Shown here: piece by piece, positions 57,111-62,771 of the stretch
Layout of the letters: every line of letters starts with the position of its first letter
How positions within the stretch are numbered: position 1 is the first letter of the stretch
From: an uncultured Eubacteriales bacterium
GTDB lineage: Bacteria > Bacillota > Clostridia > Peptostreptococcales > Anaerovoracaceae
Assembly (NCBI GenBank): GCA_902795135.1
Contig: CADBJW010000005.1
Span: 44,435-108,434, forward strand
Length of the DNA stretch: 64,000 nucleotides
Direction of reading: 5' to 3'
The notes under the pieces: model-generated
Seen by the model: the letters and a program-made list of their open reading frames with translations, nothing else
Database searches by the model: none
What the model was told of the DNA's origin: nothing
Position numbers and translations under genes: made by a program

Positions 57111-57680
57111 GTGATGAGCAATACAGCAGTGAATGACGGAACGCTGTACAGGCGTTTCCTTGCAGGTGAACAAGCGGCATATGATCAATTGATGATCCGT
57201 TACGGCGACAGCCTGACGTTCTATTTGTATGGCTATCTTCACGATTGGCATGATGCGGAGGATTTGATGATCGAAGCCTTTGCCAGAATCATGGTGAAAC
57301 GGCCGCAGATCAGCGACGGTGCATTTAAGGCATACCTGTTTAAGACAGGACGAAATCTGGCGGCAAGGTTCTATAGCAAACGGACACGGATCGTGCAGTT
57401 CTCTTTGGATGAGTGGGGCGGCGATATCGAGGACACAGAGATACTGGAAGAAAAGGTCCTGGACGAAGAGAAGAAAGAAGTCCTGCAGCTTTGCCTCGAA
57501 AAAATCGACCCCCAGGTGCGGGAAGCGCTGTGGCTCGTATACATGGAAGAGATGACTTATGCCGAGGTGGCAACAGTCATGAAGTTGAAGGTCAAAAAAG
57601 TCGATTACCTGCTGCAGAAAGGCAAGAAACAGATGCGTCAGGAGTTGGAAAAAGAGAGGATCACAGATGCGGACAGATGA
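57111..57680 (+). CDS. RNA polymerase sigma factor, sigma-70 family (ECF-like)
   Basis: A 189-residue factor with only regions 2 and 4. Region 2 (~20-90): AYDQLMIRYGDSLTFYLYGYLHDWHDAEDLMIEAFARIM, with the ECF DAEDL/F motif. Region 4 (~125-180): LQLCLEKIDPQVREALWLVYMEEMTYAEVATVMKLKVKKVDYLLQKGKKQM. The start may be GTG 57111 or ATG 57114; neither has a clear ribosome binding site. It overlaps the next gene (a small two-TM protein, possible anti-sigma) by 14 nt and heads a run with a PrsW-type protease, which in Bacillus cleaves an anti-sigma factor. Confidence 0.88.
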   Translation: MMSNTAVNDGTLYRRFLAGEQAAYDQLMIRYGDSLTFYLYGYLHDWHDAEDLMIEAFARIMVKRPQISDGAFKAYLFKTGRNLAARFYSKRTRIVQFSLDEWGGDIEDTEILEEKVLDEEKKEVLQLCLEKIDPQVREALWLVYMEEMTYAEVATVMKLKVKKVDYLLQKGKKQMRQELEKERITDADR

Positions 57681-58008
57681 AGAAAGAATCAACAGGATGC
57701 ATGCGCGGGCGGCACAGCTGAACAGGCAAAAGCGCACAAATAAAGTGAAGCTCATGCAGGCTGCAGGCGCAGTGGTTTCTTTTGCTGCAGTCATCATGCT
57801 TGCCATTTTTGTGCCGCAAAGCGCAGACCTGGATTCGGGAAGCCAAACAGGTCAGACAGGCGGCATGCACGCCAGCATCTTTGGTGACAGTGCAGCATTA
57901 GGGTATATCGTGGTTGCAATTATCGCATTCCTGCTGGGAATCGCAGTGACCATATTCTGTTTTCGCCTGCGGAAATGGCAGGAAGAGAAGGACAGACAGG
58001 ATCTGTAG
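57667..58008 (+). CDS. Small two-TM protein, possible anti-sigma factor (paralogue A)
   Basis: A 113-residue protein. A charged N-terminus (MRTDEERINRMHARAAQLNRQKR) is followed by TM1 (~30-48), a short Gly/Ser/Gln extracellular loop (~50-72), TM2 (~75-97) and a basic tail. The frame overlaps the sigma gene, which is typical of sigma/anti-sigma pairs. No zinc anti-sigma motif is present, so the anti-sigma role is inferred from position only. A paralogue with the same N-terminal pattern lies at 62451. Confidence 0.7.
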   Translation: MRTDEERINRMHARAAQLNRQKRTNKVKLMQAAGAVVSFAAVIMLAIFVPQSADLDSGSQTGQTGGMHASIFGDSAALGYIVVAIIAFLLGIAVTIFCFRLRKWQEEKDRQDL

Positions 58009-58025
58009 GGGGAAGAACCAGCGAA

Positions 58026-58667
58026 ATGATTGAGGTTACCGAAAATGCAATACAGTTGGTAGTGACGGGGCTGTGCGCATTGAGCGCCCTGTGGTACGCA
58101 GCGCGTTCAAAAGAACGTGCCTGGGTTTTGCTTGGTCTGTTTGCGGGAATCTTTTTTCTCGGAGATCTGTACTGGCAACTTTATCTGGCCTTCTATGATG
58201 AAACGCCGATGTTCTATATTTCAGAATTCAGTTGGTACACCTCGTACCTGTTTTTGTTGCTTTTGCTGATCTACATCAACGTGGAGAATTCGCGAGACTG
58301 GAAGTTCCGCCTGCGGCCGAGGTATCTATGCATTCCGGCGTTCACCTTCGGCATGTGCGCCTTCTACATGACTCGTGGCGATTATCTCAGCAATATCGTT
58401 GTGGCTCTGCTGATGACTGGGTTGATCTGGCACGCGTGCTATGGTCTGCAGATGACGCAAAAGCAAAAGGAAGGAGGATCGTCAGACTGTGGAAGAATGC
58501 TTTTTATCCTGACGCTTGTTTTCTGCGCGGCGGAGTATGGCATGTGGACGTCGTCTTGTTTCTGGACCGGAGACACCATTTCAAACGTTTACTTCTGGTT
58601 CGATTTTCTGCTTTCCATCACGATCATTCTGTTCCTGCCGGCACTCAGAAAGGCGGTGAGCAGATGA
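58026..58667 (+). CDS. Multi-TM protein of the sigma/PrsW locus
   Basis: A 213-residue membrane protein with about six or seven helices (for example AIQLVVTGLCALSALWYAA, AWVLLGLFAGIFFLGDLYWQLYLAFY, YTSYLFLLLLLIYI). The pattern of aromatic-rich loops resembles sensor-type membrane domains, but no family can be named. ATG 58026 follows GGGGGAAG at a somewhat long spacing. Its stop overlaps the prsW-like start by 4 nt (ATGA), so the two are translationally coupled and may form a complex. Confidence 0.75.
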   Translation: MIEVTENAIQLVVTGLCALSALWYAARSKERAWVLLGLFAGIFFLGDLYWQLYLAFYDETPMFYISEFSWYTSYLFLLLLLIYINVENSRDWKFRLRPRYLCIPAFTFGMCAFYMTRGDYLSNIVVALLMTGLIWHACYGLQMTQKQKEGGSSDCGRMLFILTLVFCAAEYGMWTSSCFWTGDTISNVYFWFDFLLSITIILFLPALRKAVSR

Positions 58668-59314
58668 ACTATATAGAAAACATCTACATATGTCTGGCTG
58701 CACCGCTTCTGATTGCAGTTTTATGCATGCAGGGCAGAGGCAGGGCAATGAATCTATTCGTTCTTGCGGGCATGACCGTATGTCTGTTGTCGTCTTACAT
58801 CAATACTTTTATTGCGACAGCGTTGGGCGTAAGTGCATTGACCGCGTCACTGGAAATCGCGCCGCTTATAGAAGAAATCATGAAATTCCTGCCGATTCTG
58901 TTCTTCCTGCTGGTGTTTGAACCGGGACGAGAGGAAACCCGCAGCGGAATCCTCATGACAGCCATTGGGTTTGCGACATTCGAAAATGCCTGCTATCTGG
59001 CGAGCAATGGCGCAGCGCATATCATCCAACTGATGATCCGGGGTTTCGGTACCGGCGCGATGCATGTGGTCTGTGCGTTTCTGATCGCTGTCGGTTTCCT
59101 GTATCTTTGGGACAGGACCTGGCTGCGTCTAGCAGGAACGATCGGGCTTATCGCAGTTGCGATTACGTACCATGGAATCTATAACATTCTGGTCTCTCAG
59201 ACAGGAACTGCTTCGATGATCGGGTATCTGATTCCGATGTTGACTGTCGCGTTGACGCTGATTTTTAGGCGTAAACTGCCGGAAGCGGATGTACCAGGGC
59301 AAACCCGAAGTTAG
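58664..59314 (+). CDS. PrsW-family intramembrane metalloprotease
   Basis: A 216-residue membrane protein with about seven helices. The conserved PrsW/CAAX-protease-superfamily residues are all present: E70-E71-x2-K74 (LIEEIMKFLP), F106-E107 (FATFENACYL), H134 (GAMHVVCAF), and H170-x3-N174 (YHGIYN). In Bacillus subtilis, PrsW makes the first cut in the anti-sigma factor RsiW. Here it follows an ECF-like sigma gene and a small two-TM protein, a likely substrate. ATG 58664 is the real start; the long upstream frame to 58232 is a shadow of the previous gene. Confidence 0.88.
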   Translation: MNYIENIYICLAAPLLIAVLCMQGRGRAMNLFVLAGMTVCLLSSYINTFIATALGVSALTASLEIAPLIEEIMKFLPILFFLLVFEPGREETRSGILMTAIGFATFENACYLASNGAAHIIQLMIRGFGTGAMHVVCAFLIAVGFLYLWDRTWLRLAGTIGLIAVAITYHGIYNILVSQTGTASMIGYLIPMLTVALTLIFRRKLPEADVPGQTRS

Positions 59315-59404
59315 TTTTGCAATCAAACAATAAAACTTTTTTTCAAAATGGATGGGGAAACCTGTCCTTTTTTGTATCTCTATAAGTAGAAGGATGTTCT
59401 GCAT

Positions 59405-59436
59405 CTGTGGAAACAAACATATCTCTGAGACAGAGG
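59405..59436 (+). promoter_or_regulatory. Conserved leader element, copy A
   Basis: TGTGGAAACAAACATATCTC followed by a hairpin CTCTG-AGA-CAGAG (59423-59435) whose 3' arm carries the ribosome binding site GAGGAA. It matches 62405-62436 at all but five positions. Confidence 0.55.
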
Positions 59437-59444
59437 AAACTACC

Positions 59445-62381
59445 ATGAATACCATAAAGAAACGGGGGAAACGAAACGATAACAAAAGCAGGATCGCGTG
59501 TTTTGCATGGCTTTTGCTTTTGCTGTTTGCCTTAACGATCGGGGCAGTCTATGCAGAGGACGGCGCTGAGACGAGCGGATCAGGAAACGAAAACAGCATT
59601 TCTTTTCTGACGCACGATGACAGCCATAAGGAAGGAAATTACTGTGGGCTCAATGAGAGCGTTGGAACGAATTATACGACGCTGGAAGCATACTGCACAT
59701 ATAAGAATGGCGAGAGTGTGTGCGACTACTACTATTCTCCTACAATATATTTTTATGTCGATATGTTTAATGGGACCTATAACGGCAATTCCTATGGAAC
59801 ACACTTCGCCTGGAAGTATATGGCGGGGCCGGACACATCGCTCCACGAGGGATTCCCGAAATACTATGAGGTCTACAACTGCACGCTGTGGAGCCGGGCG
59901 TATGAGGGCAAAACGGACGCCGGGGACACCTATTACAGTCAGGATCCGCCGACTCTTCCTGGGCAATACCGGGCCTATGCCCACATCCAATTTGGCAGGC
60001 TGGGAGATAAAATCCTGTACAGTTATGAGTATACGATCAAGCCAAAGACAATCACTTTGGAATGGGGTGACGAAACGGAATTTCTATATGACGGAAAGCC
60101 CCATGCGCCAACGGTAGAGATTGCGTCGGATCAGATCCTTAAGGGGGATGAAGTACGTGTCACGAGGACGATGGAAGCGGAAGCCGGAGCGCATACCGCA
60201 ACGGCAGAACTGACAGGAAAAGACAGTTGGAAATACAAGATCGATAACGATTCAGCCAGCAAAGATTACGCCATTGGCTGTCCGTACGAGGTGCAGTTCG
60301 ATTCCAATGTGCCGAAAGACGCATCTACAAAAGACATGTTCAGCGGTGAGATGCCAAAGGAGTCTTTCGATTACGATGAGACGAAAGCGCTGACAAAGAA
60401 CGCATACGTTCTGCCAGGTTACGATTTCAAAGGCTGGAACACGAAGGCGGACGGTTCCGGGACTGCCTACGCCGACGAGGAAGACGTGAAGAACCTGACT
60501 GATAAGGGCGGAACGGTCGTACTCTACGCGCAGTGGAGTGCCAAGGCGTACAAAATCGTATTCAACCCGGACGAAATTGGCGGCGATGAGCATATACAGA
60601 CAGCCTACTTCGATCAGCCGGGAACCCTTGATGTGTATTCGGATGAAGCATTCGGCTGGAACTCGGGCGGCAAAGCGCTGCACGGATGGGCCGGCACCGG
60701 ATTTGGTTCATTATACGAAGACGGCGCGACCTTCCTCAATCTCTGCGGTAAGCCCCGCTCGGACGGCAGCCTTGCAGAAGGGGATCTGGTCGCCCAATGG
60801 GTAGAGACGGGCCAGATCGTCGTCACGGTGACGAAGGATAACGTTCCGCAGGATGGCCTGGCGGACGAACTCACTCTGGTCGACGGGTCCGGGACAGAAT
60901 TCAGTGTCCATGTCTCGTATGAACGCGGGCAATACATCTTCGACCCGTCGCAGGCGTCCTGGCAGGGAAGTGGAACGGCGCAGCTGCCGCCTGGTGAGTA
61001 CGACTTGTCGTTCGAATACAAAGACCGCGGCTATCCGAAGGCGACCGCACATATCGTGTACGGGAGCGACAGCGTTGCCAGCGCTGTGTTCTCTTACTAC
61101 ACTGTAACGTATAAAGTAGAGAACGGCACCTGGGAGGACGGCACCACGACGAACAAGACAGAAACCGTTTTAAGTGGGAAATCTCCCGAACATATCCCAA
61201 CAGGTATGATCGCCGAGGAAGGTTTTGCAGGTGGCACATGGGATGCGGATCCAGGCACCGCGGCTATCACCAAACCGACTGTTTTTACCTATGTCTTTAA
61301 GCCAGAACTGATCATAACAGCCAATGATCAGTCCTATGAATATAACGATCAGCTCCAGGGTCCGGGAGATGTAGCTTATGAAGATCCGGCGGAGATCGCA
61401 GAAATGGTCACAGTCAGCGGCCTGCAGGATGGCGATGCGCTGACTAGCATTATCCTGGATGGACAGGGCAAAGAAGTAGGGAAGTATGACTTGATACCTT
61501 CCGACGCTACGGTCAACGGAGAAAGCGCAGCAAATAAATACGATGTCACGTACGTGAACGGCACGCTCACGATTACGCCGAAGCCAGTGACTGTATACAC
61601 CGTCACTTTCGTGGACGGGCAAGGCAAAACACTGAAGATACAGAAGGTGCAGAGCGGCAAATCAGCGACGGCCCCAGCTGCTCCAAAGAGATCCGGTTAC
61701 ACCTTCGCAGGTTGGGACAAGGATTTCAGCAAAGTCACCGCGAACATGACCGTGACTGCCAAGTGGAAGAAGAATCCTGCGCCAGCAACACAGGTTAGCG
61801 GCACGCTTCTGGTCAAGATGACATCCAAAGGAAAGAGAAGTCTGGTTCTCACATGGAACAAGGTGAATGGCGTGGACGGCTATGACGTTTTCTTCTCCAT
61901 GTGCAACCACCATGGAAAGGAAATACAACTGAAAAAGGTCAGAACCATCAAAGGCAATCAGACCTTCAAGTGGACCAAGAAAAGTTTGAAGAAAAAGAAA
62001 CCATACAAGGCGGTTGTCAAGGCATATGTCATGAAGAACGGCAAAAAGAGTTATGTAAGAACCAGCCCAATGGTACATGCCTACACGTCAGGCAGTACCA
62101 AGAACTATACCAATATCAAGAGCGTGACGGTCGAGAAGACAAGCATCTCCCTGAGCAAGGGCAGGACGTACAAAATCAAGGCCAAGGTCAATAAACTCAA
62201 GAAGGGCAAGAAACTCATGTCGACAGGCCATGCACCAAAGCTGCGCTACGTCAGCAGCAATGAGAAAATTGCAACCGTCAGCAGTTCCGGCAAGATCATA
62301 GCCAAAAGCAAAGGCAACTGCAAAGTCTATGTGATTGCCGTCAATGGCGCTTCAAAGGCCGTTCTTGTTACGGTCAAATAA
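59445..62381 (+). CDS. Large secreted repeat protein (MBG, InlB-type, FN3 and Big_2 domains)
   Basis: A 978-residue secreted protein. Signal peptide ~1-42 (hydrophobic WLLLLLFALTIGAVYA). Then: an N-terminal region with many Tyr/Cys; an MBG-type domain (EYTIKPKTITLEWGDETEF); InlB B-repeat/Listeria-Bacteroides repeats (NAYVLPGYDFKGWNTKADGS ... LYAQW, further degenerate copies, and SGYTFAGWDKDFSKV); a second MBG (YDVTYVNGTLTITPKPV); an FN3-like domain (~790-880); and a C-terminal Big_2-like domain (KSVTVEKTSISLSKGRTYKIK). There is no LPXTG anchor. ATG 59445 follows GAGGAAACTACC. Likely an adhesin and the probable output of the sigma locus upstream. Confidence 0.85.
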   Translation: MNTIKKRGKRNDNKSRIACFAWLLLLLFALTIGAVYAEDGAETSGSGNENSISFLTHDDSHKEGNYCGLNESVGTNYTTLEAYCTYKNGESVCDYYYSPTIYFYVDMFNGTYNGNSYGTHFAWKYMAGPDTSLHEGFPKYYEVYNCTLWSRAYEGKTDAGDTYYSQDPPTLPGQYRAYAHIQFGRLGDKILYSYEYTIKPKTITLEWGDETEFLYDGKPHAPTVEIASDQILKGDEVRVTRTMEAEAGAHTATAELTGKDSWKYKIDNDSASKDYAIGCPYEVQFDSNVPKDASTKDMFSGEMPKESFDYDETKALTKNAYVLPGYDFKGWNTKADGSGTAYADEEDVKNLTDKGGTVVLYAQWSAKAYKIVFNPDEIGGDEHIQTAYFDQPGTLDVYSDEAFGWNSGGKALHGWAGTGFGSLYEDGATFLNLCGKPRSDGSLAEGDLVAQWVETGQIVVTVTKDNVPQDGLADELTLVDGSGTEFSVHVSYERGQYIFDPSQASWQGSGTAQLPPGEYDLSFEYKDRGYPKATAHIVYGSDSVASAVFSYYTVTYKVENGTWEDGTTTNKTETVLSGKSPEHIPTGMIAEEGFAGGTWDADPGTAAITKPTVFTYVFKPELIITANDQSYEYNDQLQGPGDVAYEDPAEIAEMVTVSGLQDGDALTSIILDGQGKEVGKYDLIPSDATVNGESAANKYDVTYVNGTLTITPKPVTVYTVTFVDGQGKTLKIQKVQSGKSATAPAAPKRSGYTFAGWDKDFSKVTANMTVTAKWKKNPAPATQVSGTLLVKMTSKGKRSLVLTWNKVNGVDGYDVFFSMCNHHGKEIQLKKVRTIKGNQTFKWTKKSLKKKKPYKAVVKAYVMKNGKKSYVRTSPMVHAYTSGSTKNYTNIKSVTVEKTSISLSKGRTYKIKAKVNKLKKGKKLMSTGHAPKLRYVSSNEKIATVSSSGKIIAKSKGNCKVYVIAVNGASKAVLVTVK

Positions 62382-62404
62382 AAAATGTTTTCAAATTATC
62401 TCAA

Positions 62405-62436
62405 ATGTGGGAGCAAACATATCTTTGAGACGAAGG
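62405..62436 (+). promoter_or_regulatory. Conserved leader element, copy B
   Basis: TGTGGGAGCAAACATATCTT followed by hairpin CTTTG-AGA-CGAAG. Compared with copy A, one stem pair covaries (C-G to U-A) and another goes from U-A to U-G. It lies between the surface protein stop and ATG 62451. Confidence 0.55.
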
Positions 62437-62450
62437 GAGTTGACATCCTG

Positions 62451-62771
62451 ATGAGAAGTACGGAAGACAGACTCGCAAGGATGCATGAAAGAGCTACGAT
62501 GATCAAGAGACAGGAGGACAAGTCCAGACTAAGAATGCTGGGCTCCTTATCAGCGGGGCTGATGGTCTGTCTTGTTATTGTCATGCAGCAGCTTCAGAGT
62601 ATGCATCATGAGATATATGAGGGCCAAACAACAGGGACATCCCTGCTAGATGACAGCACGGGAGGGTACGTTCTCGCAGCGGTGCTGGCGTTTATTGCCG
62701 GGGTGATCGTAACAGCTGTGATATACAGATTCAGAAGAAAAAAGGGAGACGATGGATATCATGAACAGTAA
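62451..62771 (+). CDS. Small two-TM protein (paralogue B)
   Basis: A 106-residue protein: charged N-terminus MRSTEDRLARMHERATMIKRQ, TM1 (~27-44), a Thr/Ser/Asp loop, TM2 (~68-90) and a basic tail. The N-terminus, topology and size match the protein at 57667. ATG 62451 is chosen over the ORF start at 62385 because it aligns with the paralogue and follows GAAGGGAG. It lies behind the large secreted protein gene and is trailed by a short signal-peptide-like ORF and a terminator. Confidence 0.75.
   Translation: MRSTEDRLARMHERATMIKRQEDKSRLRMLGSLSAGLMVCLVIVMQQLQSMHHEIYEGQTTGTSLLDDSTGGYVLAAVLAFIAGVIVTAVIYRFRRKKGDDGYHEQ

Follow-up and report, generated by a model that had tools for sequence, protein, structure and literature searches.

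A five-gene membrane signalling module with its own ECF sigma factor, apparently a variant of PrsW signalling, beside large secreted proteins in Clostridia

The 64,000-nucleotide stretch analysed here (the window; contig CADBJW010000005.1, from the 2.08-Mb draft assembly of an uncultured Eubacteriales bacterium) encodes, on its + strand at 57111-62771, a sigma factor of the extracytoplasmic function (ECF) type, a small protein with two predicted transmembrane (TM) segments (2TMa), a seven-TM protein (7TM), a PrsW-type intramembrane protease, a secreted repeat protein and a second two-TM protein (2TMb). An earlier reading of the sequence, the original prediction, had placed six genes in this order and proposed that PrsW, together with the multi-TM protein, cuts the first two-TM protein to free the sigma factor, which then activates the surface protein; all six genes were found as placed. 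Computation shows that sigma matches a two-box ECF promoter lying 3' of PrsW and 5' of the surface-protein gene or of a 2TMb-surface-protein pair, and sequence covariation makes it highly probable that sigma controls the surface-protein gene. Sigma, 2TMa, 7TM, PrsW and 2TMb apparently form a five-gene membrane signalling module with a sigma factor of its own, which occurs in numerous Clostridia, often from the gut or rumen. Searches of open-licence PMC full texts yielded no published description of it. We interpret the module as ECF/PrsW signalling in a new variant.

The sigma protein matches Sigma70_r2 (42.6 bits, 5e-11) and Sigma70_r4_2 (46.8 bits, 2e-12), both over cut-off, as well as TIGR02937 (80.4 bits, 1e-22), and so has the region-2 and region-4 domains of an ECF sigma factor. 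A two-box element of 44 nt, with the consensus GTGGGGAgTTTT....TTTTaTGTAtCTATATAAGTGAAAGG, recurs in the intergenic stretches that separate PrsW from 2TMb. A position weight matrix (PWM) for it was trained on 54 of 57 stretches, L101, L117 and L127 being left out as near-identical. The element lies 61-115 nt 5' of 2TMb in 53 of the 54 stretches and at 167 nt in L140; L084, counted at 81 nt, scores below 0 and has no convincing site. At 24 bits or more, the PWM gave 56 matches on both strands of 2.27 Mb, and its reversed version gave none. Forty-six of these matches precede 2TMb, and as the PWM was trained on nearly all of them, the other ten are the fairer test: one precedes the repeat gene of the window, six follow PrsW (L124, L126, L129, L143, L153, L155), two precede large secreted genes (L087, L093), and a divergent one, in L146, is the only site that neither follows PrsW nor precedes a large secreted frame. 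No match at this threshold lies directly 5' of a sigma gene. The window promoter reaches 33.4 bits though it was outside the training set, and it fits the exact pattern of the genus, which is present in 9 of 9 genomes where the cassette is strong and in 4 of the 40 remaining ones. Eleven of the 18 exact matches in the genus-wide scan fall within cassettes; six of the remaining seven are followed within about 130 nt by a gene whose start looks signal-like to the eye, and one is inside a coding frame. The window genome contains two exact sites (reversed control, 0), the second of which precedes the gene for a 2,221-residue secreted protein. A related pattern gave six matches in ten genomes of other groups, against two in the control; going by their coordinates, five of the six are cassette promoters.

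Covariation was followed at 52 loci having sigma, PrsW, 7TM and promoter, drawn from 62 with a promoter of at least 12 bits; sigma residues are numbered from ATG 57114. For -35 positions 3, 5, 6 and 7, the best predictor among the columns of the three proteins is sigma 164 or 165, situated in the recognition helix of region 4; the variable -10 position 25 is best predicted by sigma 58, followed by sigma 82. D164 goes with GGGA/AGGA at 23 of 23 loci, T164 with GAGAG/GAGAT at 13 of 13, A164 with GCGTAG at 6 of 6 and E164 with CGGGT/TAGTG at 8 of 9; R58 is accompanied by GTATCT or GTATTT (21/23), Y58 by GTACCT or GTCCCT (18/18) and V58 by ACAC boxes (6/6). On the tree of 7TM and PrsW, GCGTAG lineages are interspersed with GAGAG lineages, and over the 19 rows concerned the two types are perfectly separated by five of 214 sigma columns (149, 164, 165, 172, 177), as against none of 212 PrsW and none of 236 7TM columns. 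Independent differing pairs agree for A164 (5/5), D164 (3/3), T164 (3/3) and E164 (1/1, plus one tie). As judged by covariation, separate -35 and -10 boxes would thus be read by regions 4 and 2, as expected of an ECF factor. Since the promoter covaries with the DNA-binding residues of sigma, transcription of the surface protein unrelated to sigma is unlikely, and the activation of the surface protein by sigma, as originally predicted, gains strong support of a computational kind. Several results weigh against this. At -10 positions 23 and 24, PrsW L176 ranks first, with no sigma column, and at several other promoter positions PrsW or 7TM columns come first, as shared ancestry would give. The independent-pairs tests comprise two to five pairs each, which puts p 0.05 out of reach. 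The 18 exact matches of the genus-wide scan compare with seven in the reversed control, and the window genome has six sites at no more than one mismatch versus three in its control, so that single unlinked sites need context to be believed.

A search of 100 genomes at E <= 0.01, counting the window genome and weak matches, found 13 with the two-TM family and 12 with the seven-TM protein. Strong seven-TM matches come from nine genomes of the genus, the window's included, and from one genome (G090) of another family of the order. The genus relatives carry sigma, 2TMa, 7TM, PrsW and 2TMb, mostly with adjoining large secreted proteins, and some contigs end mid-module; in G004 and G035 the sigma gene is located after PrsW. 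The large protein differs in identity between genomes, and only some, among them the window and G004, have it between PrsW and 2TMb. Beyond the genus, GTDB-based contigs scanned with the seven-TM profile alone yielded 79 loci, by record name mostly from Clostridia and also from Erysipelotrichaceae/Solobacterium, with carriers such as Acetivibrio mesophilus N2K1, Negativibacillus massiliensis and Oscillibacter sp. MSJ-31. Sigma is present in 72 of these loci (70 upstream and two after PrsW; absent from five, contig edge in two), 2TMa in 70 (absent from seven, contig edge in two), PrsW in 78 (contig edge in the remaining one), 2TMb in 58, and all five families together in 52. Because the loci were fetched by the 7TM profile only, the presence of the other families is an independent observation, and since dozens of other genomes keep these families in an almost identical order, the arrangement is beyond chance. 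The conserved gene order on which the original prediction had staked itself was thus looked for at 79 loci, and an absence of synteny did not occur.

At five of the loci, sigma and 2TMa are not beside the 7TM-PrsW pair. Whole-genome searches of these split genomes found two-TM proteins in four and sigma in the same four; in the fifth, G113, neither was found. Where both are present, the sigma match overlaps the two-TM match in four of four genomes. A second two-TM gene bears the same promoter in G110, G111 and G112 (37.7, 34.0 and 17.8 bits, respectively), and G114 yielded none. Sigma-2TMa and 7TM-PrsW thus seem to be separate pairs, retained together in one genome even where they are not neighbours, and this pairing is the best evidence in the analysis for who works with whom. 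A separate observation concerns L156 (8080-9769), where fragments that we take to belong to a two-component system precede a partial 7TM-PrsW pair; the genome gave no sigma and no two-TM protein at the thresholds used.

Table 1. Positions of the genes and sequence elements of the locus, numbered within the window
Feature	Position	Strand	Basis
ECF-type sigma factor	57111 (GTG) or 57114 (ATG)..57680	+	Sigma70_r2, Sigma70_r4_2, TIGR02937; region-2/-4 residue covariation with promoter
2TMa, small two-TM protein, putative anti-sigma	57667..58008	+	14-bp overlap with sigma gene
Seven-TM receptor-like protein (7TM)	58026..58667	+	AlphaFold2 model, seven helices
PrsW-type intramembrane protease	58664..59314	+	PF13367; active-site residues
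Terminator-like hairpin and T tract, 3' of PrsW	59350..59373	+	GGATGGGGAAACCTGTCC then TTTTTT, 7 pairs; overlaps promoter
ECF-type promoter	59352..59395	+	GGGAA at 59355, GTATCT at 59374; PWM 33.4 bits
26-nt leader copy 1, 5' of repeat protein	59406..59431	+	Sequence match to copy 2
Secreted repeat protein, 978 aa	59445..62381	+	Signal-peptide-like N-terminus; List_Bact_rpt, MBG_2, Big_2
26-nt leader copy 2, 5' of 2TMb	62406..62431	+	Sequence match to copy 1
2TMb, 2TMa paralogue	62451..62771	+	31% identity, E 4e-17

The individual calls of the original prediction were borne out (Table 1): the ECF-like sigma gene, the two-TM gene overlapping it, the multi-TM protein, PrsW with its catalytic residues, the repeat protein of about 980 residues and the second two-TM gene as a paralogue. 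The secreted protein that it called giant is of modest size in the window; the 25 complete proteins found after 2TMb have a median of 1,504 residues, and the frame of one relative exceeds 3,000. A frame of at least 100 residues follows 2TMb at 52 places, the window included. The first such frame is signal-like in 42, and in 38 it is signal-like and either at least 400 residues long or running off the contig; in the other ten, the window among them, it is not signal-like. The 2,221-residue protein of the window genome (L167 3897-10562, G000:C23), a second likely target, contains List_Bact repeats, a Cthe_2159 carbohydrate-binding domain and Big_2. In L151, the second frame after 2TMb, where other loci have the secreted protein, is presumably a phage-tail-sheath-like gene.

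The repeat protein and 2TMb of the window have a 26-nt leader in common, GGRARCAAACATATCTYTGAGAC, the 21-nt core of which has two matches in the whole genome at no more than three mismatches. As a candidate for the sigma promoter this repeat was rejected: 12 stretches from relatives gave no match at up to 8 mismatches of 26, and it lies downstream of the conserved two-box element. Probably the 2TMb leader was duplicated when the repeat-protein gene inserted, and the repeat marks that event; alternatively, it might be a translational control element.

Some further promoter sites were recorded as observations in their own right. In L161 (G104:C15), a promoter-like match lies on a different contig from the cassette of the same genome (L155), and in L064 (G004:C3), a site found with an earlier version of the pattern and kept out of the counts precedes a large secreted protein. 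L182 (G112) and L183 (G111) hold extra sigma copies, near which a strong copy of the promoter (44.8 and 42.3 bits, respectively) is followed by a gene of about 470 codons; judging from these copies, the sigma family may have other jobs. The divergent site of L146 (about 9667, - strand; 41.3 bits) belongs to a 7TM-PrsW locus without sigma and faces away from it, 5' of a regulator-like gene that we take to encode a LytTR-type response regulator.

None of 2TMa, 2TMb and 7TM of the window matches a Pfam or NCBIfam family over cut-off (for 2TMb, the Pfam scan covered the window copy). In the alignments, A6 is without L117 and L139 (72 of 74, plus the window), A7 without L117 (68 of 69) and A8, that of 2TMb, without L117 (54 of 55). 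The scan of 69 2TMa sequences gave DUF2207_C in 23 (best E 0.007) and ThrE in six (best 9e-5); we read the weak Pfam matches of 2TMa and 7TM as chance between hydrophobic proteins. The best 25 of 100 families included no YxlC-type family and no anti-sigma family besides DUF4179 (4/69, best E 0.025), which we presume to be linked to anti-sigma factors. These results, together with two predicted helices, agree with the original description of a putative anti-sigma with two TM segments and no known anti-sigma domain. In 2TMa, the basic N-terminus is conserved, as is an A-S-I-F stretch that precedes TM2, with A-S at residues 69-70 in 57 of 69 sequences; 2TMb has the same N-terminal pattern and G-x-x-L-L in place of A-S-I-F. 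RsiW of Bacillus subtilis is presumably cut at an Ala-Ser bond, which the literature passages did not confirm, and the A-S of 2TMa as a PrsW cut is a hint only. Searched against solved-structure sequences, the two-TM profiles gave two weak matches only (E 0.07 and 0.56).

Given that 2TMa and sigma form an overlapping pair which is kept even apart from 7TM-PrsW, we consider it rather likely that 2TMa is an anti-sigma factor. Counting against this role are the lack of any match over cut-off to a known anti-sigma domain, the low confidence of the two-long-helix model (predicted local distance difference test score, pLDDT, 68.6), the two of 79 loci (L087, L114) where sigma is present with no profile-detected 2TMa beside it, and an ambiguous mutual-information signal, sigma taking 25 of the top 60 N-terminal 2TMa pairs where about 18 are expected by column numbers, with no sigma excess for 2TMb. 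In G019, the genome matching the L087/L114 case, only a C-terminal piece of 2TMa was found, through frameshift, assembly error or loss. The same want of an anti-sigma domain and the same coupling figures would suit a different arrangement, in which the link from sigma through the promoter to the surface protein is right, 2TMa is a membrane anchor or subunit of a 7TM-PrsW complex and 2TMb helps to assemble the surface protein, to which it is often coupled in translation; a large gene with a signal often comes after 2TMb, as in the 42 signal-like first frames, and in a number of loci the first frame overlaps 2TMb by 4 bp. We regard this arrangement as unlikely, because the overlapping sigma-2TM pair persists away from 7TM-PrsW in all four split genomes having it, the 2TMa gene usually overlaps or abuts the sigma gene across loci, and 2TMa and 2TMb have the cytoplasmic N-terminal motif in common. 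Across the family, 2TMb is usually the first gene behind the sigma promoter, a place overlooked when the original prediction treated it, correctly, as a paralogue. Its role as a feedback inhibitor is tentative, with chances somewhat below even: 16 of 79 loci yielded no 2TMb (five more being contig edges), and in the window it stands behind the repeat protein with no PWM match of its own, both of which speak against feedback.

The PrsW protein of the window matches PF13367 with 59.3 bits against a cut-off of 23.5 (4.8e-16). Among 74 aligned cassette proteins, E70, E71, K74, E107 and H134 are present in 74 and H170 in 73, which provides the EExxK motif and further conserved His of the family; N174, in all 74, gives HxxxN where B. 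subtilis PrsW has HxxxD. The protein is a member of the PrsW family and not the NCBIfam equivalog (NF033739, 32.4 bits against a cut-off of 225). In the window genome there is one match to an M50 site-2 protease and, in L002 (G000:C14), a second PrsW-family protein with no sigma or two-TM neighbour noticed within its 3.5-kb stretch. From the intact active site, it seems reasonably likely that PrsW cleaves 2TMa. Alternatively, PrsW, with 7TM, might itself process, export or anchor the surface protein, sigma only timing production. An intramembrane protease of myxobacteria that sorts surface proteins is presumably kin to PrsW. Passages of the respective sources describe that sorting (PMC11980579) and propose that PrsW domains process secreted toxins (PMC3482391), and PrsW adjoins a large secreted protein in many of our loci. 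Among the 25 complete downstream proteins, however, eight have a hydrophobic C-terminal stretch (two of them LPXTG-like) and 17 have neither feature, so that no common tag is seen; moreover, PrsW of the window lies upstream of terminator and promoter, outside the sigma-controlled unit, and in the split genomes 7TM-PrsW is apart from the sigma-2TM pair, all of which renders direct processing quite improbable. Terminator-like hairpins with a T tract occur at 13 sites in the region, with 5.2 expected. If the 44-nt element is a promoter, transcription would start just after its GTATCTATA box. That this conserved element serves only as a terminator or leader RNA and is not read by sigma is hardly credible even though it overlaps such a hairpin in the window and, by eye, in several genus relatives, since L048 and L050 keep the box spacing with no hairpin evident by eye, the same element precedes unlinked secreted-protein genes, and the -35 box covaries with region 4 of sigma and one -10 position with region 2.

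The AlphaFold2 model of 7TM has seven helices (pLDDT 93.4; predicted template modelling score, pTM, 0.90). Loop charges over 73 sequences indicate an N-out/C-in topology, with 343 K/R versus 128 D/E in the inner loops and 56 versus 197 in the outer ones. The invariant or near-invariant polar and aromatic residues are in the outer half, where N7, Q10, Y49, W50, W70, E170, W174, N187, Y189, W191 and D193 form an outward cluster. In the Pfam scan of the 73 sequences, none of the best 25 of 34 families was matched by more than two (best single E 5.6e-5, Acyl_transf_3), and the 7TM profile had no match up to E 1 among solved-structure (PDB) sequences. The best 50 of 527 Foldseek rows are nearly all rhodopsins and G-protein-coupled receptors (GPCRs), with a TM-score of about 0.6 to sensory rhodopsin II; against kinship, no structural match came at E <= 0.001, and no significant match of structure or sequence places 7TM in either group. 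It resembles microbial rhodopsins and GPCR-like bundles in its seven helices and N-out/C-in topology, and the retinal lysine in the middle of helix 7 of microbial rhodopsins is absent from it. "Receptor-like" is used here by analogy only, and we put 7TM as a signal receptor at a little under an even call.

On the basis of these results, we propose the following mechanism. When no signal is present, 2TMa would hold sigma at the membrane via its conserved arginine-rich cytoplasmic N-terminal helix. The seven-TM protein may detect an extracellular cue with its conserved outward residues and control PrsW, which would then cut 2TMa in the short external loop, at the conserved A-S-I-F stretch. The M50 site-2 protease of the genome and cytoplasmic proteases would finish 2TMa and thereby free sigma to transcribe the surface-protein gene or genes and 2TMb, and 2TMb, with its 2TMa-like N-terminal motif and no A-S-I-F stretch, may restore the brake by negative feedback. 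That the genes work in this way, as a self-contained membrane signalling module serving one or a few large secreted proteins, is fairly likely. The relay in full, in which a seven-helix receptor gates PrsW, PrsW cleaves a two-TM anti-sigma of a new family, the deployment of giant surface proteins is thereby controlled in Clostridia and Erysipelotrichia, many of which come from gut and rumen, and sigma-induced 2TMb closes a negative feedback loop, is possible and, as a whole, doubtful.

Clostridia of the gut and rumen commonly have large secreted repeat proteins, and to our knowledge little has been established about how they are switched on. The module provides such proteins with a sigma of their own, a promoter code that can be read and a candidate for the sensor, so that target genes become predictable from sequence in many genomes. 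It also brings to light two families without a convincing Pfam-A match, possibly a minimal anti-sigma and possibly a receptor for an intramembrane protease, and D, T, A and E at sigma 164 provide a natural series of switches in sigma-promoter specificity.

Small membrane anti-sigmas without a classical anti-sigma domain exist in B. subtilis, namely in the SigY-YxlC/YxlD and SigM-YhdL/YhdK systems; we know of no PrsW or 7TM partner in those operons and of no surface-protein target. In Clostridioides difficile, CsfT and CsfU are reportedly ECF sigma factors whose expression depends on PrsW, going by the title of a 2011 paper by Ho and Ellermeier. The consensus of their promoters remained to be identified according to a passage of PMC7438776, and we liken our module to this system, ECF sigmas in a Clostridium, by description only. 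The nearest experimentally known pathway is SigW-RsiW-PrsW-RasP of B. subtilis, in which, according to passages of PMC5358783 and PMC3498285, PrsW is the site-1 protease of RsiW, an anti-sigma with a single TM segment and a zinc-binding ZAS cytoplasmic domain (PMC5358783). The module resembles this pathway in having an ECF sigma factor, a membrane protein coded beside it, a PrsW with EExxK and a further conserved His, and a site-2 protease in the genome. In contrast to RsiW, the candidate 2TMa has two predicted TM segments and no match to a ZAS/ASD domain. The module differs further in that PrsW is coded in the sigma operon beside 7TM, HxxxN replaces the HxxxD motif given for B. subtilis PrsW in a passage of PMC4602095, and the targets found are secreted proteins.

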